41,797 bases of DNA from Oligoflexales bacterium (lineage in GTDB: Bacteria; Bdellovibrionota_B; Oligoflexia; Oligoflexales; Bog-1112), in contig JAGNWK010000016.1 in NCBI GenBank assembly GCA_017985985.1, forward strand, positions 1-41,797, in the 5' to 3' direction. The stretch's first letter is position 1. Each line of letters begins with the position of its first letter. The notes under the pieces are model-generated. The model saw only the letters and a program-made list of their open reading frames with translations. It ran no database searches and was not told where the DNA came from. Positions 5,313-41,363 of the stretch are shown here, in pieces. Both the position numbers and the translations under genes were made by a program.

Positions 5313-5747
5313 TTAGCTTGGCGTTTTTTGGCTTTGGATATATTTTTTGATCACTTCAATAGAAGCTCCACCACAAGATCCTGCAAAGTAACTTCTAGAC
5401 CAGAGATGTTCTCCCCACAAGGCTTTCTTGATGGAAGAATAACCTTTTTTTCTGATCACGCGAGATGAGGCGCCTTTAAGACTATTCACTAGTTTTGAAA
5501 CAGCTACTTTTGGAGGATAAAAGATAAGAAGGTGGACATGATCATCTTCTCCATCTATCTCTACCAGTTCAGATTCAAATTTTTCACAAATTTGAGAAAA
5601 AATCACATTCAAAGCATCAATAATAAGTTTTGTAAAAATTTTCCTGCGGTATTTCGTGACAAACACCAAATGAACATGCATTTGAAAAGCGCAGTGTCTA
5701 CCTGTTCTGATACTATGGCTAAAAAAATCAGTCCATCTTTTGTTCAT
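5313..5747 (-). CDS. tnpA: IS200/IS605 Y1 transposase TnpA
   Basis: The 144-residue product is a single-strand transposase of the HUH, single-tyrosine family. 'GEDDHVHLLIFYPP' carries the HUH pair (His-Val-His). 'LWGEHLWSRSYFAGSCGG' is the family's conserved segment, and 'EVIKKYIQSQ' contains the catalytic tyrosine near residue 137. The length is normal and the frame uninterrupted, so the enzyme may be active. The ATG start (5745-5747) lies inside the first codons of the divergent tnpB, so each gene's promoter must lie within the other. Confidence 0.95.
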   Translation of the reverse strand: MNKRWTDFFSHSIRTGRHCAFQMHVHLVFVTKYRRKIFTKLIIDALNVIFSQICEKFESELVEIDGEDDHVHLLIFYPPKVAVSKLVNSLKGASSRVIRKKGYSSIKKALWGEHLWSRSYFAGSCGGASIEVIKKYIQSQKTPS

Positions 5748-7267
5748 ACCTTCGAATTGCAGATCGCTGAAGCCGGTAGTAGCTTTCGATCTTTAGACGT
5801 CAGTAGCGATCACTATCGCAGATTGTATAATGCTGTTTTAGGCCACCTACTTTTTTTAGCCAAAAAAATGAAGTCTAGCTCCGGATGGACCTCTGCTCGC
5901 AAAATGCCAAAAGCTACTGATGAGGACAGGCTAGCACGTTCGATGGCTTTTGAAAGTTTAAAAAAACAATATAAAATCACCAAGAACGACAGTGAAAAGT
6001 ATATTAAATCTTTAGTCAAGACTTCTGATTTTAGATTGTGGTGTAATTCAGCAGTGAATCAAAAATGTGCTGAAAGAGCCTTTAAAGCTGTAAATCTCTT
6101 TATTTTTGGAAAAGCTAAGAGGCTGCGATTTAAAAATAAATCTAAAGCTTTTAATTTTGAAGGTAAGTCGAATGATACGGGTGTGCGCATCCTCGAAAAG
6201 GATAAAAGATTTATTTGCATAGTGGGGAAAATCCCTATCATTGTCACGCTCTATCTTCCCGCTGTAAATATGCGCGAATTCTTATCAAAACTATCGAAGG
6301 AAAAAGCGCTATTTCGTGCAAGGAGTATTTGAAGGCCTCCCTTACGAGGATAAAGAAAAGCAAGCGCGACATCTAGAGAGAGTGCAGAGTAGAGAAGAGG
6401 GTACAGAGTTTGATGCTAGGCGTCAGCAACTTCCTTTGCATTTGCGTGATAAAGTAGCCTATGATATTGGCCCCAAGATGATTGCTATTTCCACGGCTCT
6501 TACAAGCTTCGAGCGTCCTCTATGTAAAGATCTCGATACGAAGCAGCAAGAAATTCGTCGTATTCAACGTAAATTAGATAGGTCACGGCGTAAAACGAAT
6601 CCTACAAATTATCATGAAAATAAAACCATAAAGAAGGGAACTAAGCATTGGAAGTATTCCAAAAACTATCGGCAATTAAAAAATCAACTTGCCGATTTAG
6701 AAAGAAAAAAAACTGCCATCAGAAAAAGTAACCATGGAAATCTCTGCCATGAAATTTTAGCGTATGGGAACCTAGTCCATACAGAGAAAGTGTCCATAAA
6801 AGGTTGGCAAAAGTTGTGGGGTCGAAGTATTCAACATCATGCACCGTGCTTTAACAAGCGAATTAACTCGAAAAGCAGCATATGCTCGAGGGCGGGTAGA
6901 GAAGATCTCGACTTTTGACACGGCCTTATCTCAACATTGCGTATGTGGTCACAAAAAGAAGAAACCTCTGTGTGAGAGAGTGCATATCTGTGAGGTGTGT
7001 AATTTTAGAGCTAAACGTGACACTTTATCAGCTTATTTAGCTTTATTTGCCGACTTTAAATCTGATGAGAAAAAATGGCAGGTAAATTATAACGAGGCTT
7101 TGTATTTTTCCAAAGGGCATAGAACTTTGTCCTTGCGTGCGCCCGACGTTGCGGAAACAGTCAACAGAAGATTGTCTGAAATTTTTTCAGACTGCCAGAA
7201 CCGTATCTGGCCAGATTCTGTGCACCAGAAGAGTCAAGATTTCATCCAAGAGCTGGCTTATCTTTAA
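5715..7267 (+). pseudogene. tnpB: TnpB (RNA-guided nuclease family), broken by three frameshifts
   Basis: The start is ATG 5715. The N-terminal part is intact ('FVHTFELQI', 'LYNAVLGHLLFLAKKM', 'AERAFKAVNLFIFGKAKRLR'). The homologous sequence then jumps frame near 6258 (to 'YARILIKTIEGK'), again in the A-run near 6299-6305 (to 'RYFVQGVFEGLPY') and again near 6847-6852 (to 'LTRKAAYARGRV'). Pieces of the RuvC-like core remain: 'VAYDIGPKMIAIST' (Asp), 'HTEKVSIKGWQK' (Glu), and a zinc ribbon 'HCVCGHKKKK..CEVC' followed by 'RAKRDTLSAYLA' (last Asp). TnpB proteins are omega-RNA-guided nucleases that favour transposon retention. This copy cannot make a full protein without at least three frame changes. 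Confidence 0.9.
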
Positions 7268-7524: not shown

Positions 7525-7704
7525 ATGAGCCAAGTAAAAACGATTTTTTCCCCTCCTCAGAATAGAAGAATGTCATACTCTCTTATCAGAATGACGGTTG
7601 CTTTGATTTCTTTTCTACTTGCGGTTGTTGCCAGTCCTTCTGTGACAAAAAGTGGTGTACAGGATCAGAACAAAGTTTGCCTAAAAAACTGTGTTCACGC
7701 CTAA
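7525..7704 (+). CDS. 59-residue Cys-containing peptide, candidate modified or signalling peptide precursor
   Basis: A short open frame begins at ATG 7525, with CGGAG 6 nt upstream, and ends at TAA 7702-7704. The protein has a basic N-terminus ('NRRMSYSLIRM'), a hydrophobic helix ('VALISFLLAVVASPS') typical of a Sec signal or membrane anchor, and a C-terminal tail containing 'KVCLKNCVHA'. The stop overlaps the GTG start of the binding-protein gene by 14 nt, so it is the first gene of the YcaO operon. Position, size and two C-terminal cysteines make it a plausible substrate of the YcaO protein or an exported pheromone-like peptide. This is inference. It could also be a chance leader peptide. 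Confidence 0.55.
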   Translation: MSQVKTIFSPPQNRRMSYSLIRMTVALISFLLAVVASPSVTKSGVQDQNKVCLKNCVHA

Positions 7705-9211
7705 TTCTGCTTTGCAGTCGAGACGTGTAGTTCTTCTTATTATCTGCACGTGTGTGCTCATCTGCTCCCTTACCGTTGCGTTCTTCGGATTTTTCTTTCA
7801 AAAACAGAGTGATGGGTCAGGTGACATGCATAAGCAAATTTTGAAGGTCGCTTTGCCTTTGCAATTTTTTAAAGGGCAGAAGCTTCTCGATCCACAAAAT
7901 TTAAATTACATCTACGAATACTATCTGCTTGAAAATCTAGGTTCTGTGCTCCTCAGAGAGGATGCTCGAGAACCTGGTGGGTATCGAGCAGAGTTGATGG
8001 AAGGCTATCAGCAGGAGTCCTCTTATTCTTGGGCGTTTGTTCTCAAAAGGGATCTCCGCTGGAGTGACGGCTCTTTGATACAGGCTGAGGATCTTGCACA
8101 GAGTCTACTTCGCCTATCTAAAAAAGGTAGTCGCCATCATCTCATTTTGAACGATCTTCAAAGTGTAGATTTTGATGAAAGTTCACGAGTCATTCGTCTG
8201 CGATTTTCTCAGAAGGTTGAGCAAGAAGATCTTCTCCATGAGCTTTCCTTGGCAGATGCCTCCCTACTTCACCCTAGAAATTTCCAAGACGACTGGACAG
8301 TCAGCTCTGGTCATTTTTTTGTTGAAAAGATGAGCTCTGAAAAAAATGTTCTCACTTTGAAGGCTAATCCCTATTTGCCTGTAGAACGAAAACCAGAGGT
8401 CCAATCTGTGGAACTGCGCGACGGGAGTACGCAGGAGGGGACTCTTTCCTTGCTCGGTTACGACATGATGAAGCGTCCCCCTTATTCTTTCCAAGAAAAG
8501 ATAAAGAAGCTGGAAGATCAGGCCAAGAAAATATGGTTGGGGCATGCCATCACGATCTATTACTTTTATTTCGGGAAAGATCATCTACTCACAAAAGATT
8601 TGAAATCGAGACAAGAATTTTCACATTTAGTGGCACTAGCGTACCGAAGTCTGACGAAAACCCCTTCTCTTTTTTATGAAGAACAGATTGTTCCAGAAGG
8701 TTTTTCAGGGAGATTAAAATCTTTTTCAAGACATCTTGAGCCTATTGAAAATCTGAGGGGAAAGACCCTAAAATTGGTTTTTGATTCAAGACTGAGTGGC
8801 TCCGATTTTCTGACGACCCCCCTGCTTGAGGTGGGACGGCAGCATGGGGTTCAATTTGAAATAGAGTTCTCATCAGATAAGAATGTCCTTAACCAGGCGT
8901 TTGCTGTGATGACCAATTTTGTTGGGAATCAAAAGAGTCCTTTGGGTTCCTGGAGTTTTCTTTATTCAGAACAGGGAAGTGTGGGTTATTTTAGAGAAGA
9001 AGCCCAATCTTTTCTGCAAGCTGTCATAAAATCCAGCAAGGAAGATCGCTTTTCCCGACTTATGGACCTTCATAAATTCAGCTTAGATCAAACTTTCCTT
9101 GTTCCTTTCATGTGTGAACAGCACGCTATTTTAGCGAGTGAGAGAGTCGACCTTTCTGCTCTAAATCCATTTGACCAACGCATGAGATTTTTTGAAGTCA
9201 AATGGAATTAA
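7691..9211 (+). CDS. Membrane-anchored family 5 (OppA/DppA-like) solute-binding protein
   Basis: The 506-residue product has an N-terminal membrane helix ('VVLLIICTCVLICSLTVAFF', about residues 13-36) that lacks a lipobox. The rest follows the SBP_bac_5 pattern: 'LLENLGSVLLRED', 'SYSWAFVLKRDLRWSDGS' (the classic F-LR-x3-W-DG signature), and 'ANPYLP'. Family 5 proteins bind oligopeptides, dipeptides or similar ligands in the periplasm. The start is a GTG at 7691 overlapping the small peptide gene. No ABC permease or ATPase gene is nearby, so it may act as a receptor for the adjacent sensor kinase rather than as a transporter component. Confidence 0.8.
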   Translation: MFTPNSALQSRRVVLLIICTCVLICSLTVAFFGFFFQKQSDGSGDMHKQILKVALPLQFFKGQKLLDPQNLNYIYEYYLLENLGSVLLREDAREPGGYRAELMEGYQQESSYSWAFVLKRDLRWSDGSLIQAEDLAQSLLRLSKKGSRHHLILNDLQSVDFDESSRVIRLRFSQKVEQEDLLHELSLADASLLHPRNFQDDWTVSSGHFFVEKMSSEKNVLTLKANPYLPVERKPEVQSVELRDGSTQEGTLSLLGYDMMKRPPYSFQEKIKKLEDQAKKIWLGHAITIYYFYFGKDHLLTKDLKSRQEFSHLVALAYRSLTKTPSLFYEEQIVPEGFSGRLKSFSRHLEPIENLRGKTLKLVFDSRLSGSDFLTTPLLEVGRQHGVQFEIEFSSDKNVLNQAFAVMTNFVGNQKSPLGSWSFLYSEQGSVGYFREEAQSFLQAVIKSSKEDRFSRLMDLHKFSLDQTFLVPFMCEQHAILASERVDLSALNPFDQRMRFFEVKWN

Positions 9212-10191
9212 AATGGATGCCAGACCAGTCCTTTTTTCAAAAAGGTCAGATGGAGATTGTTTTATCTTTTATTTCTGAGCCAGCTACTTTGACTTGGGAA
9301 TTTACGAGGTGGCGAAGCCGTAGAGCTTTGCCATTTGCTGTCGTGAATTGTCGAGCAAGGCTTTCCTCTAGCGAAATCACCTTTGAAACAGTGGGCTTAG
9401 GTATTCGGTTTCTTTTCAAGAACGCTCTCCTTGTCTCCTTTGCGGAGGCGTGGGAAAGGCTCATTTTTCTTAGTGCGAGAGGAGCAGACTTCATCCCCCC
9501 TTGCTCTCGTCTATCCACCAATGGATATGCAGCTGGTGCAACAGAATTTTCAGCAAAGAGAAAAGCTAAAGAAGAATTGATCGAGCGAAGTCTGGTGCTT
9601 TCTTCGTGGCGAAGCCAAACAGGGTGGACTCAAGTTTTTCCCCGTGGTCTACGAGTGCGCTTCTTCATAGCTCTTTTGAAGACTTGGGGCTGGGACTGTT
9701 CTTTTTTCCGTATCGATGGAGAAGATTTTCTGGGTTCTGCTCTCGTCGCTTTGGGCGTTGCTTCCTCTGGGGGATTCGTTTGTGACAGCGTCTTTCTGTC
9801 CATATCAGAGGCAGAGTCATGTGCTCTGAAGCTGATTCAGGGACTAGTCTCTATCGTCACGAAAGTAGAAGAGGAGAACCCGGAGCCGCTCTCTGTCTTG
9901 CCAGATAAGGCTGAGCCAGATGATCATCTTCACTACTATCTTTTGCCTGAGCACAGACGGGCTTTAGATTGGGTTTTTGCTTCCCCAAAACAGGAACATG
10001 CAGGTCTTCTGCCTTTGAACTCAAAGACTGTACTTGTGACTCAGCTCAAGACTCAGCCTAGAGTGGATCTCATTGTTGCTAACCCCGGTTTACCCTTTGT
10101 CGCACTTGCTTACGAAGCGACTTGGCCTGTTCTGAGTTGGGGTAAGAAGAGTCTGGTGGGGGGAAACAATTGGCCTCATCCTCTCGCATGA
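9202..10191 (+). CDS. YcaO-like protein (putative azoline/thioamide-forming enzyme)
   Basis: The 329-residue protein shows the YcaO ATP-binding signature. 'TNGYAAGATEFSAKRKA' runs straight into 'KEELIERSLVLSSW' (about residues 106-136), matching family S-x-G-x-A-x-G...A...A-x-x-E-x-x-ER. A second helix 'EAESCALKLIQGLVS' and 'DDHLHYYLLPEHR' match later family segments. YcaO enzymes use ATP to activate peptide amide bonds, forming azolines or thioamides in RiPPs. The very C-terminus, 'NNWPHPLA', resembles the PxPxP tail of azoline-forming members but ends in Ala. It is shorter than the usual 380-450 residues. No E1-like partner, TfuA or dehydrogenase is adjacent. The start (ATG 9202) overlaps the previous gene by 10 nt. 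Confidence 0.72.
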   Translation: MELKWMPDQSFFQKGQMEIVLSFISEPATLTWEFTRWRSRRALPFAVVNCRARLSSSEITFETVGLGIRFLFKNALLVSFAEAWERLIFLSARGADFIPPCSRLSTNGYAAGATEFSAKRKAKEELIERSLVLSSWRSQTGWTQVFPRGLRVRFFIALLKTWGWDCSFFRIDGEDFLGSALVALGVASSGGFVCDSVFLSISEAESCALKLIQGLVSIVTKVEEENPEPLSVLPDKAEPDDHLHYYLLPEHRRALDWVFASPKQEHAGLLPLNSKTVLVTQLKTQPRVDLIVANPGLPFVALAYEATWPVLSWGKKSLVGGNNWPHPLA

Positions 10192-11441
10192 GAAAACTTC
10201 TGCCTATTTTTCACATCAATCTTCTGATGTGGGGACTTTGCTTTTGTTTGCTGACATGTTCCCTTGTTATGGTTTTTTCTATCATTCAAGAAGAAAGCCA
10301 ATTTTTTTTAAAGGGAATTTTACAAGCGTTGATGAAGTCGCAGTATGAGGAATTGCTTCGAGGCGATTATAGAAATTTTGTAGAAGGTTTGGGGTCTCAG
10401 TTTCAAGAATTTTATGTTGAGATAGAACGCTTTCAGCAAAAGTTTTCTTTTGGGGATAAGAATCTTCGAGGGTTTATATTTTTTAATTGTATCGAAGATC
10501 AGCTAAAAATTTCACAACAAGATCGCGATTTTTTGCAGATTTCTCTGTGTCGTCCCCCCAACTCCATGTTGGGTTACTTAGGTGTATCCTTCGCGATCTC
10601 TATTGTTTTAGCTGTCTTTTCTTTTCGGATGTCCCGTCGGTTCGAGAAAGAGACTTGTTCTCGACTCGCGTTGTTTTTGAATGAACTTGGTCTGCATGTC
10701 GGAGCAAAGCCAGAACATATAAGAGAAATTTTGATCAGACTTTCGTTGTTTAAACGAGAATTTGAGGACATAAAAAACAATCTTATCAAGACGACAGAGG
10801 AGAGGTCCTTTGCAAGGATGGCATCTTTCATAGCTCATGACTTGAGACCTCCTTTGGAATCCCTGGTAGAGGTTTTACAGATAAAAAGTTTTGGGGAGTG
10901 GGAGAGGCTAAGACCGATGGCCTCATCTGCGATGGAGAGGATGAGACTTCTTCTAAAAAATCTTAATAAAAGGAAAGCTTCTTCTTCACCGATTCATTCG
11001 GCCTGTTCTCTAAATTTTCAGGACGTATGTCTAGAACTGCAGATGGAGGTACAAGGTCGCTTCCAGAAAAAAGGTCTCACTTTTTCTTTTTCTGCTCCAC
11101 CCGGTCTCGTTCGTTTGGGTATAGATAAAGAAGCGTTTGAAAGATGTCTCCTTAATCTCATTTATAATGCCTGCGATTTTTCTATCCAGGAGGTTGCTGT
11201 CAAAGTTCAGACTTTGAACGAGCAGGTACTTGTGGAAGTTATCGATGATGGGCATGGGGTCCCCTCTCATCTCGAGGGGGACTTATTTAAAAGTTTTTTT
11301 TGTTTTGGGAAAGAAGATGGCTATGGTTTGGGTTTAACTTTTGTGTGGGAGATGATGACTCAATGTGAGGGGGAGGTTTTTTATCAGCGAAGGGGACTGC
11401 GGACGGTTTTTAGTCTTTTGATTCCTTATTCAAAAAATTAG
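10188..11441 (+). CDS. Membrane sensor histidine kinase
   Basis: Two membrane helices (about residues 9-34 and 127-146) enclose a periplasmic sensor region of about 90 residues. A cytoplasmic linker leads to the H-box 'FIAHDLRPPLESL' (His near residue 217), the N-box 'LLNLIYNACDFS', the G1 box 'VIDDGHGVP' and the G2 box 'GYGLGLTFVWEM'. The protein of 417 residues starts at ATG 10188, whose ATGA overlaps the YcaO stop. A further upstream TTG is less likely. It should phosphorylate the response regulator encoded 9 nt downstream. The input could be ligand-loaded binding protein from the same operon, which is inferred. Confidence 0.93.
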   Translation: MRKLLPIFHINLLMWGLCFCLLTCSLVMVFSIIQEESQFFLKGILQALMKSQYEELLRGDYRNFVEGLGSQFQEFYVEIERFQQKFSFGDKNLRGFIFFNCIEDQLKISQQDRDFLQISLCRPPNSMLGYLGVSFAISIVLAVFSFRMSRRFEKETCSRLALFLNELGLHVGAKPEHIREILIRLSLFKREFEDIKNNLIKTTEERSFARMASFIAHDLRPPLESLVEVLQIKSFGEWERLRPMASSAMERMRLLLKNLNKRKASSSPIHSACSLNFQDVCLELQMEVQGRFQKKGLTFSFSAPPGLVRLGIDKEAFERCLLNLIYNACDFSIQEVAVKVQTLNEQVLVEVIDDGHGVPSHLEGDLFKSFFCFGKEDGYGLGLTFVWEMMTQCEGEVFYQRRGLRTVFSLLIPYSKN

Positions 11442-11449
11442 GATTTTTT

Positions 11450-12688
11450 GTGGATGATTTTCTTTTGATAGTGGAAGACAATGTCGAAGAGCTGTCTTCG
11501 TGCTTATCTTTGATGAAAGGTCTTAAGTATGAGGTCCGAGGTCTCTCTTCTTTTTTAGAAGCCGAAACCCTCTTAAAAAAGAAAAAAGTCGATCTGCTTT
11601 TTGTTGATCTGTTTCTTTCCTCTGATCCCAATCCACTTGGGATCGAGCTCCTCAAGCTAGCTGTGAAGTTCAATCCATCGGTACTACCTATCATCATGTC
11701 TTCGCACCCAGATGCACAACTTTATTTGAGAGCTATGGAGGAGGGAGCTCTTTACGCTATAAAAAAACCGCTTATCAATCAGGATGAACTCACAATTGCC
11801 ATTACAGAAGCTAGAGAGAGGAGATGGCTGCAAAATGAAAAAAAGGAAGGATCTCTCCCAGAGCAGTTATTGAAGCTCTGCCCAGATGGTCTTGTGCTGT
11901 CAGAAAAAACACGGAGAGCAACTGAGATCTTGTCCAGAAATCCAAGCTTACCAGCCGTGATCTATGGAGAAACAGGCACAGGAAAAGAAGAGGTCGCCAA
12001 GTTGATCCACAAAAAAAGGATGGTGATGGGGGCTAGAATTCCCTTTGTTGCTGTGAACTGCTCTCTTCTCAATGGGGATTTGGCCGAGTCTCTGCTGTTT
12101 GGGCATGTGAAAGGTGCTTTTTCTGGGGCCGTCGTTGACACAGAGGGCTTTATTGGAACAGCAAGGGGAGGGGTCTTGTTTCTCGATGAAGTTCACACCC
12201 TCTCCTTGAAATGTCAGCAGAAATTGCTGAGGGTCTTGAGTGATGGACACTACCACCGGGTGGGGGAACACAAAGAGAGACAGTCACAATTTCAGATCAT
12301 TGCAGCCAGTGGAATCAATTTGGATCAAGCTATCGACTCTGGTCATTTTCTTCTTGATCTGGCCTCTCGTCTGACGGGGATAGAGATTCATCTGCCTCCC
12401 CTCCGCGAGAGGAAAGAGGAATTGCCACTATTGGTCCGTTTGTTTTTAGCCAAAAAGCAGGTTTTTCTCGATGAAAAAACGCTTAACAAACTCATTCGAC
12501 TCTGTGAAAGCTATTATTGGCAGGGGAATATTCGGCAGCTTTACCAAGTTCTCCACGCGACTATGGCGTTATCCCACGCCGATGGAGAAGAGCTGAATCC
12601 GGCCTACCTGCCTGATTTGACCAGTATGAAGGCCCCTTCGGCTAAGCGACGAAAAATTCTTCAGTTCTTGAATTTCTCTTCATTTTAA
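11450..12688 (+). CDS. NtrC-family sigma54 response regulator lacking a DNA-binding domain
   Basis: The receiver domain has 'LLIVEDN', phospho-acceptor Asp53 in 'LLFVDLF' and 'AIKKPL'. The AAA+ domain follows with Walker A 'GETGTGKE' (about 173-180), the sigma54-contact loop GAFSGA (222-227) and Walker B 'GGVLFLDEVH'. Thr of the canonical GAFTGA is Ser here. After the AAA+ domain only about 35 residues remain ('KAPSAKRRKILQFLNFSSF'), too few for a Fis-type helix-turn-helix. HTH-less activators such as FlgR are known and act on sigma54 holoenzyme from solution. The start is GTG 11450, with AGGA 6 nt upstream. It is the last gene of the YcaO unit. Confidence 0.92.
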   Translation: MDDFLLIVEDNVEELSSCLSLMKGLKYEVRGLSSFLEAETLLKKKKVDLLFVDLFLSSDPNPLGIELLKLAVKFNPSVLPIIMSSHPDAQLYLRAMEEGALYAIKKPLINQDELTIAITEARERRWLQNEKKEGSLPEQLLKLCPDGLVLSEKTRRATEILSRNPSLPAVIYGETGTGKEEVAKLIHKKRMVMGARIPFVAVNCSLLNGDLAESLLFGHVKGAFSGAVVDTEGFIGTARGGVLFLDEVHTLSLKCQQKLLRVLSDGHYHRVGEHKERQSQFQIIAASGINLDQAIDSGHFLLDLASRLTGIEIHLPPLRERKEELPLLVRLFLAKKQVFLDEKTLNKLIRLCESYYWQGNIRQLYQVLHATMALSHADGEELNPAYLPDLTSMKAPSAKRRKILQFLNFSSF

Positions 12689-18507: not shown

Positions 18508-19944
18508 ATGAGCTTAGATCTCAAGCAAACATTCAGGCTCTCTCAGCAAATCTTGATGACACCTCAACTTCAACAGGCCATCAAGATTCTGCAACTTTCT
18601 CGTCTTGAAATTGAGCAATTCGTTCAGCAGCAGCTGACAGAAAATCCCGTCCTCGAGGAGGAAAAGGGAGAACTCGATGCTACTTTTCAAGAGGAAACAG
18701 GTGAGCATATCCTTTCGGAAGAAGTAGAGCGAGAGCGTCTTGTCGACTCCATCTCTTCGCAAGATAAGGAATTAGATTGGGAGGCTTTGGTTCAGTATAA
18801 GGATAGTTCCCCACGGAAGAGTTCCTCCATCGAGGATGACGCTTATAATTACGAAAACATGGTTTCTAGGAAAAAGACTTTGGGTGAGCACCTTCTCTCT
18901 CAGGTCGGCGAGATTGATTTTTCAAAGGCGGAAAAAGATATTGCTGAGAAACTGGTGGGGAATATCTCTGAAAATGGAATCCTAGATCTGGACCTAGAAT
19001 CGTTTTGTGTGAGCGAACAAGTGGACCCTGAGCTTGTCGAAGGGGTTCTCGACTCGATACAGAGGTTTGATCCCATTGGAGTGGGGGCGAGAAGTCTACA
19101 AGAGTGTCTCTTGATCCAACTGCGTGAATACAGGCTAAAAAATGGGGTCGTTGAAAAAATAGTTCAGAATCATCTGAAGGATATAGAAAATTTCAACTAT
19201 GATATTGTGGCTAAATCTTTAAAAATTCGAGAAGAGGAAGTTCTACAGAATGTCGATATCATCCTCCGCTTGAATCCCCACCCTGGAGACCTGTTCAATC
19301 AGGATCCAGTCGATTTAGTTGTCCCCGATGTCTTCATCTTCAAGAAGAAGGAGAATTGGCAAGTGACTTTAAATGAAGACAATCTTCCAGACTTGAAATT
19401 AAGCTCGTACTATAGAGAGATTGCCAAAGATATTCGGAGTGGGAAAGAGAAGGACTATATTCAGGAAAAGATCAAATCAGCTCAGTGGTTGATTAAGAGT
19501 ATGCAGCAAAGGAAAAAAACGATCTTAAAGGTGACAGAAAGCATAGTGCAGAGGCAAATTGATTTTCTTGAGAAGGGACCTCAGTACTTGAAACCCATGA
19601 TTCTCAAGGATGTGGCAGCAGATCTGGGTCTTCATGAATCGACAGTGAGTCGTGCAACAAATGGTAAATATGCACATACACCGAGAGGGATTCGAGAACT
19701 AAAGTTTTTTTTCAGCGGCTCCTTGACCAATGCAGAAGGAGAAGAGCTGGCGAGTGAGAGTGTTAAGGTTACACTCAAGCAGGTTCTTGACCAAGAAAAC
19801 CCAAAAAAGCCGTATTCCGACCAGGAATTGGTTGCTTTGCTGAGGGAGAAGGGTATATCTCTCGCTAGAAGGACAGTGGCTAAATATAGGGATCAGCTCG
19901 GCATTCTTTCATCAAGCAAGAGAAAGAGGAGGCGTAGCGGGTGA
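18508..19944 (+). CDS. rpoN: RNA polymerase sigma-54 factor
   Basis: The 478-residue protein is complete. Region I is glutamine-rich ('TFRLSQQILMTPQLQQAIK'), an acidic region II follows, then the core-binding domain, the HTH around 'VAADLGLHESTVSRATNGKY' and the C-terminal RpoN box 'ARRTVAKYRDQLGI' that reads the -24 element. It lies 11 nt after lptB, the conserved lptB-rpoN order of proteobacteria. It is the natural partner of the activator at 11450-12688. Confidence 0.97.
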   Translation: MSLDLKQTFRLSQQILMTPQLQQAIKILQLSRLEIEQFVQQQLTENPVLEEEKGELDATFQEETGEHILSEEVERERLVDSISSQDKELDWEALVQYKDSSPRKSSSIEDDAYNYENMVSRKKTLGEHLLSQVGEIDFSKAEKDIAEKLVGNISENGILDLDLESFCVSEQVDPELVEGVLDSIQRFDPIGVGARSLQECLLIQLREYRLKNGVVEKIVQNHLKDIENFNYDIVAKSLKIREEEVLQNVDIILRLNPHPGDLFNQDPVDLVVPDVFIFKKKENWQVTLNEDNLPDLKLSSYYREIAKDIRSGKEKDYIQEKIKSAQWLIKSMQQRKKTILKVTESIVQRQIDFLEKGPQYLKPMILKDVAADLGLHESTVSRATNGKYAHTPRGIRELKFFFSGSLTNAEGEELASESVKVTLKQVLDQENPKKPYSDQELVALLREKGISLARRTVAKYRDQLGILSSSKRKRRRSG

Positions 19945-36858: not shown

Positions 36859-38199
36859 CTAGTCACACGTTCTTATATCTTCTTTGGGTACGGTGAGAGC
36901 TTTTTCTGCGATGGCACTAAGGGTTTTGGGATCGATTTTGGTGTGATGAATATTCAGACTCTCTAGATAAATTGCATGGGCAAGTAAGCCTGAAAGCTCA
37001 GATAGGTCACAGTTGTCCGATAGATCTATATTCTTGAGATGAATGAAGGCTCCATCCGAAGCACCCTGTAGGCTCACATAATCTTTTAAACTACCGATCT
37101 TGTTTTTTCTCAGAATAAGATCTCTGATTTTAGTAAGTTCAGCAAGCGGAGCTAGATCGGATACTTCGTTCTCAGACAGATCTATGGACTCAAGTCCTTT
37201 CAGATACTTCAAAGAACTGAGGTCTTGGATTTTATTTTGGGAGAGGTTGAGGGATGTCAGATTGTGGAACTTTTCCAGAGCTTCAAGGCTGGTGATCTGA
37301 TTATTCTGTAACAGCAGTTGTTTAAGACTGTCCTCCAAGCCATGTAAGGGTGCAAGGTCTTTTAGACTTTTGTTTTGCAGTGAGAGAAGGGGGCGTCGCT
37401 TTAATTCTTCAAAAATTTGTGAGCAATTATTAGTGTAAGGGACAAATTCTGCCAAGGCTTGCACTGTTTTTTTGAGTTCTTCACTGAGGGTTTTATCGGA
37501 GCAGTAGTCATAGAAATTTTTCATCCTACAATTTTTTTGACCATGATCCCAGACTTGTAGCCCTGTTGCCTTGCAATTCGACTCACCTGCAGATAGACAT
37601 TTGCCTTCGATCCAAGAGGATCCATCTCTGCGATCAAGACATGTTTTTTCTGCTTTTGTGAGGCAGCGAGTTTCCGATTGGCTCCAGGTGTCGCCTCCTT
37701 TTAGGCAGGAAAGCTGTTTTGGACTCAGGCATTCGGAGCTCTTTTCGTCCCAAAACGCCCCTTTTTCTTGTGCAAGGCAGCGTTCTTTTTTTGTTTCTGT
37801 GGTGATTTTTAAGCAGGATCCCTGCCCTGTTTCTTTATTTATTTTCCAGCTGAACTCCGGATTTTTTTCACAATCTAATTGGAGGGTTTCGTTAGGGGAA
37901 TGGATTTGATTTTGAAGGAGAACACAAGTTTCATTCACCCATTTAGATCCATCCTTTCGTTGGTTACAGTCGAGTTGACGCTCAGTGAGAGATCCCAAAA
38001 TCAGGCATTGGTTATTTTTCCAAACATAGTCGGGTTGAAGTTCGCAGCGTTGTGCCGGCGTGAGGGTGCTTTCTTTACGGAGACAGGAAGGATTGAGTAG
38101 AATACAGCTGATTCCAAAGCAATAAGAAGCCGTTCGAATGGATAGGATGCCGAGAGGGGGTAAGTTCTCCGCGGTTCCAGCTGCGCGGGGCCCTATCAC
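36859..38199 (-). CDS. Cys/Trp-repeat protein with C-terminal leucine-rich repeats
   Basis: The N-terminal half repeats a unit of about 20-35 residues with the pattern Cys-x(8-11)-Trp-x(5-9)-Cys, for example 'CELQPDYVWKNNQC', 'CLAQEKGAFWDEKSSEC', 'CLDRRDGSSWIEGKC' and 'CKATGLQVWDHGQKNC', about eight units. The C-terminal half has LRRs ('LEKFHNLTSLNLSQNKIQDL', 'LKGLESIDLSENEVSDLAPL'). Such a protein is expected outside the cytoplasm with disulfides, perhaps for adhesion. A hydrophobic stretch 'ASYCFGISCILL' may be a weak signal. The start is unclear. GTG 38199 is taken, and a TTG at 38247 would overlap the divergent gene. The repeat type is not one I can name. Confidence 0.65.
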   Translation of the reverse strand: MIGPRAAGTAENLPPLGILSIRTASYCFGISCILLNPSCLRKESTLTPAQRCELQPDYVWKNNQCLILGSLTERQLDCNQRKDGSKWVNETCVLLQNQIHSPNETLQLDCEKNPEFSWKINKETGQGSCLKITTETKKERCLAQEKGAFWDEKSSECLSPKQLSCLKGGDTWSQSETRCLTKAEKTCLDRRDGSSWIEGKCLSAGESNCKATGLQVWDHGQKNCRMKNFYDYCSDKTLSEELKKTVQALAEFVPYTNNCSQIFEELKRRPLLSLQNKSLKDLAPLHGLEDSLKQLLLQNNQITSLEALEKFHNLTSLNLSQNKIQDLSSLKYLKGLESIDLSENEVSDLAPLAELTKIRDLILRKNKIGSLKDYVSLQGASDGAFIHLKNIDLSDNCDLSELSGLLAHAIYLESLNIHHTKIDPKTLSAIAEKALTVPKEDIRTCD

Positions 38200-38223
38200 C
38201 AATCTGATTCGCTTCAGTATATA

Positions 38224-39603
38224 ATGGATTCTATGGAAACTTTTCAAATGTCATCCTATGTTAGTTATAAAACAGTCATGAAGCGAATGGCTTCGGCTCT
38301 GACTCAACTGCAACATAGCTTCACTCATCAACAGCTTGAGAGATGGAGCCTTCTCATTCTGAGAAGTATGAGTGGTCATTTTCGCATTTTCCATCGTCCT
38401 CATCATATCATCGCCCTTTCTGAGAACCTAGATCCGATCGGTATACTTTCTGCCCTGTATCATGATGTGGTTTATTATCAAATTGATGGGGGTTTTCTTC
38501 CTGATATAGAAGCTATTCTTTCGCCTTATTTTCATTCTGTAAATGGGGTTTTGTACATATCAGAATTAGCGCCATCTTCAGACCTCATTTTTAATATGGC
38601 CCTAGAAGTCTTTGGTTTTAAGCGAGGGGATAAGCTTCTGATCCATGCTGGACAGAATGAGTTCCTAAGTGCCTTACTAGCTCTTCGTGAACTTGAGCAG
38701 ACGCTGTCGTTGCGAGAGCTCCTGATGCTTGTTGTTTGTATCGAAGCCACGGTACCTTTTCGAGGAAAAGAAGATGTTTTTTCAACTTTGAAGAGAAGGA
38801 TTTTGACTGTCAACGATCATTTGAAGTTGGGACTGAGTCCAAATGATGTGGAAATGGGTTTAAAGCGGGCTGTGATCTTAGCCAACAAAGATGTCGAGAA
38901 TTTTTCTTATAGCGATACGGCTAAATTTCTTGATAACACCTGGATGCTTCTACCAGAAACACATAAAAAGTTACAGGAGTCAAGTTTCTATACGATCAAA
39001 GAATATCGTCTTGCTCTGCAGGGGATGGAGGCTTTTCTGTCGCAGCTCGATGCACATCGTGTGTTCTATACTTATAATAACACGCCTCCTAAGCATGATT
39101 TTGATTCCATTATCTCTCTTGCTGACAGGAACCTCCACCTGGGTAGAACTTATTTGAGAGTAAAACTGTATGAGACTGCTATTCTAGAAGCTCTGGCAGA
39201 GTTAACGGGTGGGGATCTTCCGATGATTTATTTTGTCGGAGATAGAGTTCGCGGCAAAAAAAATTCAAAAACCATAGAGTCTTATTTGGAGTACAGTTCG
39301 AATAAGCATCCAGAAGATCAGGATCAAGCTCTCATCGCTCTTTTTTCAGAGGGCCGTGCACAAGAATCCTCTTTCGACTCGAAAAAATCTCCTCTATCTT
39401 TTTATCTCTATAAAAATTTAGGAGAGTTAGCGACTTTGGAGGGTGTTAAAGATGCTAAGAGGTTTTTTGCATCTGAGCTGACGAGCAAAAATTTTCTTCG
39501 CAGTCAAAAGCTGGAGATGATCTGTGATCTGGCTCAAGCTATCGCACATTTTGCAGAGTCTCGGGCTCCAGCTCTCAGAAAAATGGCTGACCTGCTCGCA
39601 TGA
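38224..39603 (+). CDS. HD-domain protein, predicted metal-dependent phosphohydrolase
   Basis: The 459-residue protein has His57, His60/His61 ('FHRPHHIIALSE') and 'ILSALYHDVVYYQ' (His80-Asp81), the H...HD pattern of COG4339-like HD proteins, with 'LMLVVCIEATVPF' after. The C-terminal 200 residues are helical and unassigned. Start choice is uncertain. ATG 38224 is directly preceded by a TATAAT (38218-38223) that could itself be a -10 box, in which case ATG 38233, 38248 or 38278 would be used. No clear ribosome-binding site is seen. Its end overlaps the next start (ATGA), so both are co-translated. Confidence 0.65.
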   Translation: MDSMETFQMSSYVSYKTVMKRMASALTQLQHSFTHQQLERWSLLILRSMSGHFRIFHRPHHIIALSENLDPIGILSALYHDVVYYQIDGGFLPDIEAILSPYFHSVNGVLYISELAPSSDLIFNMALEVFGFKRGDKLLIHAGQNEFLSALLALRELEQTLSLRELLMLVVCIEATVPFRGKEDVFSTLKRRILTVNDHLKLGLSPNDVEMGLKRAVILANKDVENFSYSDTAKFLDNTWMLLPETHKKLQESSFYTIKEYRLALQGMEAFLSQLDAHRVFYTYNNTPPKHDFDSIISLADRNLHLGRTYLRVKLYETAILEALAELTGGDLPMIYFVGDRVRGKKNSKTIESYLEYSSNKHPEDQDQALIALFSEGRAQESSFDSKKSPLSFYLYKNLGELATLEGVKDAKRFFASELTSKNFLRSQKLEMICDLAQAIAHFAESRAPALRKMADLLA

Positions 39604-41363
39604 GGAGGAATGTTTTCATCAGTCCATTTAAATGCATCTTGATTCTGGCCTTCTTGAGTTCAGCAGCCAGTTTACTGTATGAAATGAGCATGGCTAAATG
39701 CCTGTCGCAGTTGATGGATGACAGTTCAGTTTGGGAAAGCCTCAGCCTAGGTTTTTATATGGCGGGCTTTTCCTGTGGAGTCTTAGTTAGGCAAGGTAAA
39801 GGTCGAGTTGAATCCCAATTTTTTAAAGTTCAAGCCAGCCTCATCTGTTTAGGGGCGAGCAGTGTCCTTCTCACCATTTTTTTGCACATCGTTTATAGAA
39901 TTTACTTTTATGATTATGGGTTCAGTCGTGGGGAAGCCTGGATCGTTAGGCCTCTGCATCAGTTTGCTATGTTGGCAGAAGGCCTTGTCTTTGCTATCGG
40001 CTTTATGTCTGGACTGGAATGGAGGCTGCTCCTAAAAATACAGAGAGTGAAGGCGAGTCTTGTGGAGTCGCCCCTCTATCTGATCTGGTCAGCTTATTAT
40101 TTTGGGGCCCTAGCTGCTTCTCTCATCTTTATTCTTATTCTCAACCCCCATGTCAGCATGGTTCAAGCGGGTCTGCTTGCGGCCTTCGTCCATTTGATAG
40201 CATTAGGCATCTTTTTATTTGAGTTTAATCGAAAATCTGCGATTTTGAGGGTTTCAGGACTGAGTGTTCTTCTCCTTTTGGGTCTGATCTTCTCTCCCGT
40301 TTTAGAAAATCTTCAAATTAAAAATTTTTATTATAATTTTCTGGCTCTGCAGAACTCTTCACAAACAGGTATCGAATGGCTAGGCCCAGTTCCACTTTCC
40401 GAACTTTATAGCTTTTTGAAGAAAATCCCTGACGTAGAGCGAGTGCGTAGTCCGTATCAGTTTATCGATATGACAAAATCTGTAGAAAACACTGGCCATG
40501 GCTCAGAGGAAAAACCTACTGTGGAAGGGTACTTTGAGCACACTCTTTTTTTAAATGGGCATTACCAGTACGACACGAGGAGGGAACGGGATTATCATGA
40601 GCATCTGGCCCACGTCCCTTTTCTTTTGACGTCTCGCTTTCCGGATAAAGTTCTCGTCTTAGGTGCAGGTGATGGCTTACTCCTAAGGGAACTTCTTAAA
40701 CATAAGAAAAACCCACTGGATCTGACTTTGGTGGAGTTGGATGCGGGGATGGTACAGCTTGCTCAGCGTCCCCCCCTTGCTCACTTGAACCAAAATTCTC
40801 TTCGAGATCCTCGGGTGCGGGTGGAGGTGGCAGACGCCTTTCTCTGGCTGCAAAAAAATAAAGAACAGTTCTCATCTATTTTTGTCGATTTCCCCTTTCC
40901 CTTTGATGGAGAGGGTATGCGTCTTTATAGTCTGGAATTTTTCCGACTGCTTCACAAAACCCTTGCTCCTGGTGGGTTCATGGTGATGGATGCCCCCTTT
41001 CATCACTCTCCTCGAACAGATGAGGCCAGAAGAAATCTTTTTGATAACGACAGGTTGATGAGCAGTCTTTATGGAGGAGGATTTCGTTCTTTGTTTGGTT
41101 TTAAATCGATGGGTGAGGGTTTTCTGATCGGATTTGCAGAGCTGACACAGTTGCCGATTTTACCTATGAGTCGACCGCACTTGTCTCGAGAAACTTTAGA
41201 TTACTGGGAGAGTCTTTCTCTCAAGGCTTTGTCACTAGATGACTGGTTTGTTGAAGATCCTCCATTTGTGAATCTTTTAGGGGGAAAGCCCCCCCCTGGG
41301 ATAGAGTCTGCGAACTCCATCTTTAAACCGATGTCTCTAGTCCAGTCTGATCGAGCTTTTTAG
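39600..41363 (+). CDS. Membrane-bound spermidine-synthase-like protein
   Basis: The 587-residue protein has an N-terminal half of about seven membrane helices ('FKCILILAFLSSAASLLYEM', 'VSMVQAGLLAAFVHLIALGI', 'VLLLLGLIFS'). The C-terminal half is a class I methyltransferase-like spermidine-synthase domain: 'LFLNGHYQYDTRRERDYHEH', 'VLVLGAGDGLLLRELLKH', 'LTLVELDAGMVQLA' and 'ADAFLWL'. Where the soluble enzyme has Asp plus 'DPxGPA' the sequence reads 'FVDFPFPFDGEGMRLYSLEF'. Whether it makes polyamines is not certain, since membrane-fused members are little studied. ATG overlaps the HD gene stop. Confidence 0.85.
   Translation: MRRNVFISPFKCILILAFLSSAASLLYEMSMAKCLSQLMDDSSVWESLSLGFYMAGFSCGVLVRQGKGRVESQFFKVQASLICLGASSVLLTIFLHIVYRIYFYDYGFSRGEAWIVRPLHQFAMLAEGLVFAIGFMSGLEWRLLLKIQRVKASLVESPLYLIWSAYYFGALAASLIFILILNPHVSMVQAGLLAAFVHLIALGIFLFEFNRKSAILRVSGLSVLLLLGLIFSPVLENLQIKNFYYNFLALQNSSQTGIEWLGPVPLSELYSFLKKIPDVERVRSPYQFIDMTKSVENTGHGSEEKPTVEGYFEHTLFLNGHYQYDTRRERDYHEHLAHVPFLLTSRFPDKVLVLGAGDGLLLRELLKHKKNPLDLTLVELDAGMVQLAQRPPLAHLNQNSLRDPRVRVEVADAFLWLQKNKEQFSSIFVDFPFPFDGEGMRLYSLEFFRLLHKTLAPGGFMVMDAPFHHSPRTDEARRNLFDNDRLMSSLYGGGFRSLFGFKSMGEGFLIGFAELTQLPILPMSRPHLSRETLDYWESLSLKALSLDDWFVEDPPFVNLLGGKPPPGIESANSIFKPMSLVQSDRAF

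Follow-up and report, generated by a model that had tools for sequence, protein, structure and literature searches.

The operon described here raises the question of why the gene for a small exported peptide should be found beside, and partly overlapping, genes for a peptide-type binding protein, a YcaO-like enzyme and a two-component pair. It lies within a contig of 41,797 nucleotides from an Oligoflexales bacterium (GenBank assembly GCA_017985985.1, contig JAGNWK010000016.1), and this whole stretch is referred to as the window.

The five genes and their products

The operon and the mobile element next to it comprise the following features.

5313-7267: IS200/IS605-type element, directly upstream of the operon, with an intact Y1 transposase TnpA on the minus strand
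7525..7704, plus strand: small Cys peptide gene (59 aa), with a GGAG ribosome site and the C-terminal end NKVCLKNCVHA; exported; candidate YcaO substrate (precursor)
7691..9211, plus strand: OppA-like solute-binding protein (SBP) of family 5 (506 aa), with a GTG start and an N-terminal membrane anchor
9202..10191, plus strand: diverged YcaO enzyme (329 aa), with the ExxER...ExxER glutamates kept and the C-terminal end PHPLA
10188..11441, plus strand: sensor histidine kinase (417 aa), with two TM helices and a short periplasmic domain common to cassette kinases
11450..12688, plus strand: response regulator with a sigma54-activating AAA+ domain (412 aa), with a GTG start, GAFSGA and Walker A/B, but no DNA-binding HTH

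The operon spans 7525-12688 on the plus strand, and successive overlaps of 14, 10 and 4 nt are followed by a final gap of 8 nt. An earlier note, drawn from the sequence alone, had described this one-strand unit with the correct genes, coordinates and overlaps, and only its figure of 9 nt for the last gap has to be amended. In the upstream element the TnpB-like gene is split over three overlapping frames, with the TNB domain in the last, so that TnpB is probably broken. By reading, the downstream neighbour of the operon is a CTP synthase gene. Permease or ATPase genes of an Opp/Nik ABC importer were not seen, on reading the ORF lists, in the block or directly adjoining it. Sigma54 itself is encoded within the window at 18508-19944, and a sigma54 promoter scan of the window returned 13 sites against 16.5 expected, with none near the operon.

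Taken alone, the YcaO-like protein of the window matches PF02624 with an E value of 7.5e-4 and 19.3 bits, below the Pfam cut-off of 25.7, and Pfam and NCBIfam searches with this single protein give a marginal YcaO call or none. Among its cassette relatives, 14 of 16 YcaO proteins match PF02624 at E<=0.01 (best 5.7e-20) and 13 of 16 have a match to TIGR03604, the SagD model. Combining the window protein and named relatives in one profile finds MJ1094 of Methanocaldococcus (1.2e-16), the nearest solved YcaO by profile, as well as MusD, TruD, McbD and LynD. The AlphaFold2 model of the window protein is moderate (pLDDT 67, pTM 0.71), and its PDB fold matches at ranks 1-41 are all YcaO structures, the best with E 4.3e-8 and prob 1.00. 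The paired Mg2+/ATP glutamates, E82/E85 and E125/E128, are invariant in one YcaO alignment and, as E68/E71/E102/E105, in a second; E82/E85/E125 are invariant in a third. The C-terminus reads PHPLA in the window and PHP[LFI][AG] in relatives. Although marginal on its own, the third gene product is, because of its relatives' PF02624 matches and its fold, a diverged YcaO enzyme, for which ATP-dependent amide activation is predicted. The profile search and structure prediction that the earlier note had proposed as a check thus uphold its YcaO-like assignment, by way of the cassette relatives and the predicted fold.

The OppA-like product matches SBP_bac_5 (PF00496) with E 3.8e-9 and 36.6 bits against a cut-off of 32.4. 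Its AlphaFold2 model (pLDDT 79, pTM 0.75) shows a single long helix at the N-terminus (residues 5-38) and then an SBP fold, and the best PDB fold matches are MppA, AapF, OppA and NikA (E 7e-26), in agreement with its first description as an anchored, peptide-type binding protein. The fold is also that of the nickel-binding NikA. Another genome of the window's class has five OppA-like genes in a tandem array, with no YcaO (L127, G044:C6).

The sensor kinase has a Pfam match to HATPase_c (6e-11). The first 185 residues of the cassette kinases form a shared family, with leave-one-out values of 4e-5 for the window, 3e-28 for Bacteriovorax and 4e-29 for Elusimicrobia, and part of this likeness may come from a common membrane-helix composition. 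The regulator matches Response_reg (2e-11) and Sigma54_activat (7e-46) and has an NtrC-type core, consisting of a receiver and an AAA+ domain with the GAFSGA loop and Walker A/B present. In the regulators of the window and of genome G003, the part after the AAA+ lid contains no Fis/HTH domain, and the reading of this protein as an HTH-less sigma54 activator is borne out. FlgR is an activator of this kind, which the cassette regulator resembles in combining a receiver and AAA+ domain without a DNA-binding domain. In contrast, three of the cassette-type sigma54 regulators inspected (L026, L073, L081) retain, by reading, a Fis-like C-terminal tail.

Recurrence of the cassette and its peptide

Variants of the cassette are spread over three groups of uncultured bacteria, in at least 19 assemblies. 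The contig ends inside the cassettes L006, L007, L032 and L037. Counting OppA-YcaO blocks with a kinase, unless the contig ends first, 13 of 58 genomes from the window's phylum have the OppA-like/YcaO/kinase set, namely the window's genome, G003 (as a split pair), G004, G006, G011, G012, G014, G024, G027, G050, G052, G054 and G056. There are often several copies per genome, with four in G012, at least three in G027, up to three in G050, several in G054 and a second copy in G006. In G006, which belongs to the same family as the window, one block runs from peptide through OppA to YcaO and on to the contig end. In G003, a sister genome of that family, YcaO, kinase and sigma54 regulator lie together at one locus (L005). 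The gene for a short exported peptide (48 aa when read from an internal ATG, ending KRNCVHE) overlaps oppA on another contig (L115), so that all five genes are kept although the set is split. Outside the 58 genomes, a contig scan with a 6-row YcaO alignment as query places the block in a Bdellovibrionales MAG (L087), a Bacteriovorax MAG (L088), a Bdellovibrionaceae MAG (L098), two Elusimicrobia MAGs (L093, L095) and an Oligoflexia MAG (L096, L102); YcaO matches with no OppA beside them (L069-L071, L080, L082, L084) are left out of the cassette count. The comparison of homologous neighbourhoods that had been suggested for the coupled gene set consequently finds it recurring as a block, both in the phylum and in outside MAGs. 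Several cassettes (L025, L074, L026) adjoin ParA-type or integrase genes, suggesting that some are located on plasmids or integrated mobile elements. A tblastn comparison of one cassette YcaO with known plasmids found nothing.

Nearly every cassette has an ORF of 48-104 codons that encodes a signal peptide or lipobox and terminates near or inside the start of oppA. Such small exported ORFs adjoin oppA in 22 of 28 cassettes, as against 40 of 273 other genes of the same loci (Fisher p 4e-12), and those with a Cys in the last 25 residues in 18 of 28 against 14 of 273 (p 1e-13), whereas OppA relatives with no YcaO nearby have a small exported ORF in 9 of 30 (p 2.6e-4); these p values are guides that overstate significance, because the criteria, though fixed, were set after examples had been seen and the loci are related. 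The enrichment agrees with the earlier claim of an exported Cys peptide tied to the gene set.

A Cys within the last 25 residues is present in 22 of 29 cassette peptides and missing from seven, and a lipobox is present in 10 of 29. The Cys/His pattern is not kept across the peptides, and their C-terminal cores are hypervariable. Many harbor a leader-like motif, LxxxLxxxG[RV], between the signal and the C-terminal part (341 against 313 +- 4 in shuffles). The window peptide, which has no Pfam match over its 59 aa, has a signal and a core but is very short, and lacks both this motif and the lipobox that is a feature of DAG-RiPPs. It shares a C-terminal K..NC.H with the peptides of G003 and G006, and the window-family peptides end in NC[VD]H. 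One peptide from outside the motif search (L119, SKLLEKEDVVETRN) fits the motif by eye; because its OppA and, in the same genome, the L033 YcaO each reach a contig edge, assembly has probably divided a single cassette here. For the cassettes as a set, the small ORF looks like a RiPP precursor, with an export signal, a recognition segment and a variable core, and its modification is predicted.

The genes of the cassette do not co-vary equally. The OppA and YcaO trees correlate with a Mantel r of 0.75 (0 of 2000 permutations), and the YcaO and kinase trees weakly, with r 0.27 (13 of 2000). OppA-kinase gene pairs without YcaO also exist, for example L117 and L118 in G012, hinting that the SBP-kinase sensor exists independently. 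Together with the weak tree fit, these pairs mean that the kinase may sense something else.

A proposed circuit and its precedents

On balance, we favor a self-contained cassette, in which an exported ribosomal peptide would be modified by YcaO, bound by the anchored OppA-like protein and reported by the kinase to the sigma54 activator. The small ORF would encode the ribosomal precursor, the N-terminus of which would act as a Sec signal (often a lipoprotein signal in other copies) and the C-terminus as a short variable core, KVCLKNCVHA in the window. In the cytoplasm, YcaO would use ATP to activate a backbone amide of the core and so generate a thioamide or azoline. The modified peptide would leave via its own Sec signal, such that no dedicated transporter would be needed, and would be trimmed in the periplasm after export. 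The OppA-like protein, with one inner-membrane helix and no ABC permease, would capture the trimmed peptide and, once loaded, act on the periplasmic domain of the kinase. The kinase would then phosphorylate the activator, leading to sigma54 transcription, with the activator working without a DNA-binding domain of its own. This circuit is the most economical reading of the gene set, and we infer its modification, capture and sensing steps, and its direction of signalling, from the genes, their linkage, their recurrence and their folds.

More tentatively, the cassette may represent an undescribed autoinducer class, in which a signal-bearing, YcaO-modified peptide is read by an anchored SBP and a kinase. 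It could then be viewed as a mobile, multi-copy and specificity-diversifying cassette of Oligoflexia, Bdellovibrionota and Elusimicrobia, each copy having its own core and matched receptor. If true, this appears to be an undescribed kind of bacterial peptide signalling. It would join YcaO peptide chemistry, mostly natural-product or protein modification so far, with SBP-coupled kinase sensing, and would place modified-peptide signalling in Gram-negative predators and their uncultured relatives. The fixed layout makes the cassette testable directly in E. coli, and its many paralogues supply matched pairs of peptide and receptor with which specificity can be studied.

With respect to the chemistry, an E1-like partner (TIGR03882) was not found in the window's genome (92.75% complete), as the earlier note had held for the locus, and a standard azole-peptide (TOMM) cluster is rejected for this reason. 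Heterocyclisation is not excluded by the missing partner, because both bottromycin YcaOs function without one (PMC8442711). A thioamide product is suggested by MJ1094, the nearest solved homologue, and by the presence of TfuA with a methyltransferase in one cassette-like locus, and an azoline product by the frequent Cys in the peptides and the SagD-type profile matches. The locus in question (L121 819-8076, in G024) is extended, and comprises a small exported ORF, a methyltransferase, YcaO, a divergent SBP, TfuA, a kinase and a sigma54 regulator. YcaO-TfuA thioamidation is described for McrA (PMC5589413) and in Actinobacteria (PMC6511847). The cassette resembles such systems in its MJ1094 match and this single locus, but TfuA was not found in the window's genome or in any of the 58 searched other than G024. 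In one cassette of G012, a gene for a JmjC_2 (PF08007) protein separates the kinase gene from a YcaO whose reading frame is split (L028 3031-3876).

In some respects, the cassette mirrors the YcaO-dependent RiPPs (TOMMs, bottromycin, thioamitides), which also have YcaO beside a short variable ORF, and bottromycin in particular, with its stand-alone YcaO (PMC8442711). However, the cassette precursor bears a Sec or lipoprotein signal, and its fixed partners comprise an SBP with a two-component pair rather than an exporter, protease or dehydrogenase. Among signal-bearing RiPPs, the closest precedent is provided by the products of the MNIO family, the bufferins and DAG-RiPPs; they too have a short precursor with an export or lipobox signal, a modified core and a general secretion route (PMC12452194, PMC12636315). 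The cassette differs in that its enzyme is YcaO, not MNIO, and in the addition of the SBP-kinase pair.

Periplasmic binding proteins are also coupled to sensor kinases in LuxP-LuxQ and ChvE-VirA, whereas the cassette SBP belongs to family 5, is membrane-anchored and is operon-linked to YcaO and a peptide gene. In Gram-positive Opp-dependent pheromone systems, such as PrgZ/cCF10 and the Phr peptides, an SBP of family 5 is used with a self-made secreted peptide that is imported and acts inside the cell. In contrast, the cassette has no permease and has a membrane kinase. Within the open-licence full-text literature searched, there was no description of YcaO with both a histidine kinase and an SBP, with Oligoflexia, or with a signal peptide/two-component or quorum-sensing/pheromone set, and matches for a lipoprotein, RiPP and histidine kinase concerned graspetides and bottromycin regulation only. 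In that literature, the earlier statement that no system with this gene set was known stands.

Competing readings

The same genes could form a metal circuit, with a modified Cys/His peptide that buffers metal or serves as a metallophore, a NikA-like SBP, and a kinase that signals the metal status. NikA is indeed among the SBP fold matches, the NC[VD]H end of the window family is a plausible metal ligand set, and MNIO-made signal-bearing RiPPs chelate copper (PMC12452194, PMC12636315). Such a circuit is nonetheless unlikely, given that the Cys/His pattern varies across cassettes, that the top fold matches are murein-peptide and other non-metal SBPs, and that no metal transporter is present in the block. 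Also improbable is an environmental sensor, in which foreign peptides from prey or murein are detected by the anchored SBP and the kinase, YcaO modifies some other target (such as the SBP or a cytoplasmic protein) and the small ORF encodes an accessory lipoprotein. Against the murein-tripeptide binder MppA as best fold match, the OppA-kinase pairs that lack YcaO, and the several carriers belonging, by their record titles, to lineages known for predators, have to be set the tie of the small ORF to YcaO-bearing loci, its leader-like motif and variable core, and the closer co-evolution of OppA with YcaO than with the kinase.

Hypervariable cores, and the location of several loci beside ParA or integrase genes and thus in mobile DNA, would equally suit a bacteriocin-type cluster, where the peptide is an exported toxin and the SBP, kinase and regulator only control its production. 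We consider this very unlikely, as genes for immunity, a protease or an ABC exporter were not seen repeatedly in the cassette loci, and sensing better explains why the one non-regulatory partner is an SBP. That the five genes are chance neighbours without a common function is barely credible and is rejected, because many genomes have the block and small exported ORFs are strongly enriched ahead of oppA; the same order in distant phyla, the overlapping genes, the several copies per genome and the OppA-YcaO tree correlation (r 0.75) likewise contradict it.

Some further genes of the window and its genome may be mentioned. At 36859-38247 (minus strand) the window encodes a protein in which leucine-rich repeats (PF12799) come after repeated units that contain Cys. 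A multi-TM protein with a spermidine-synthase domain (39600-41363, plus strand) adjoins a product of 459 aa (38224-39603, plus strand) that has no match in Pfam. Elsewhere in the window's genome, at C53:7072-7851 (minus strand), there is a RiPP-type enzyme of the MNIO family (PF05114, E 2e-97).
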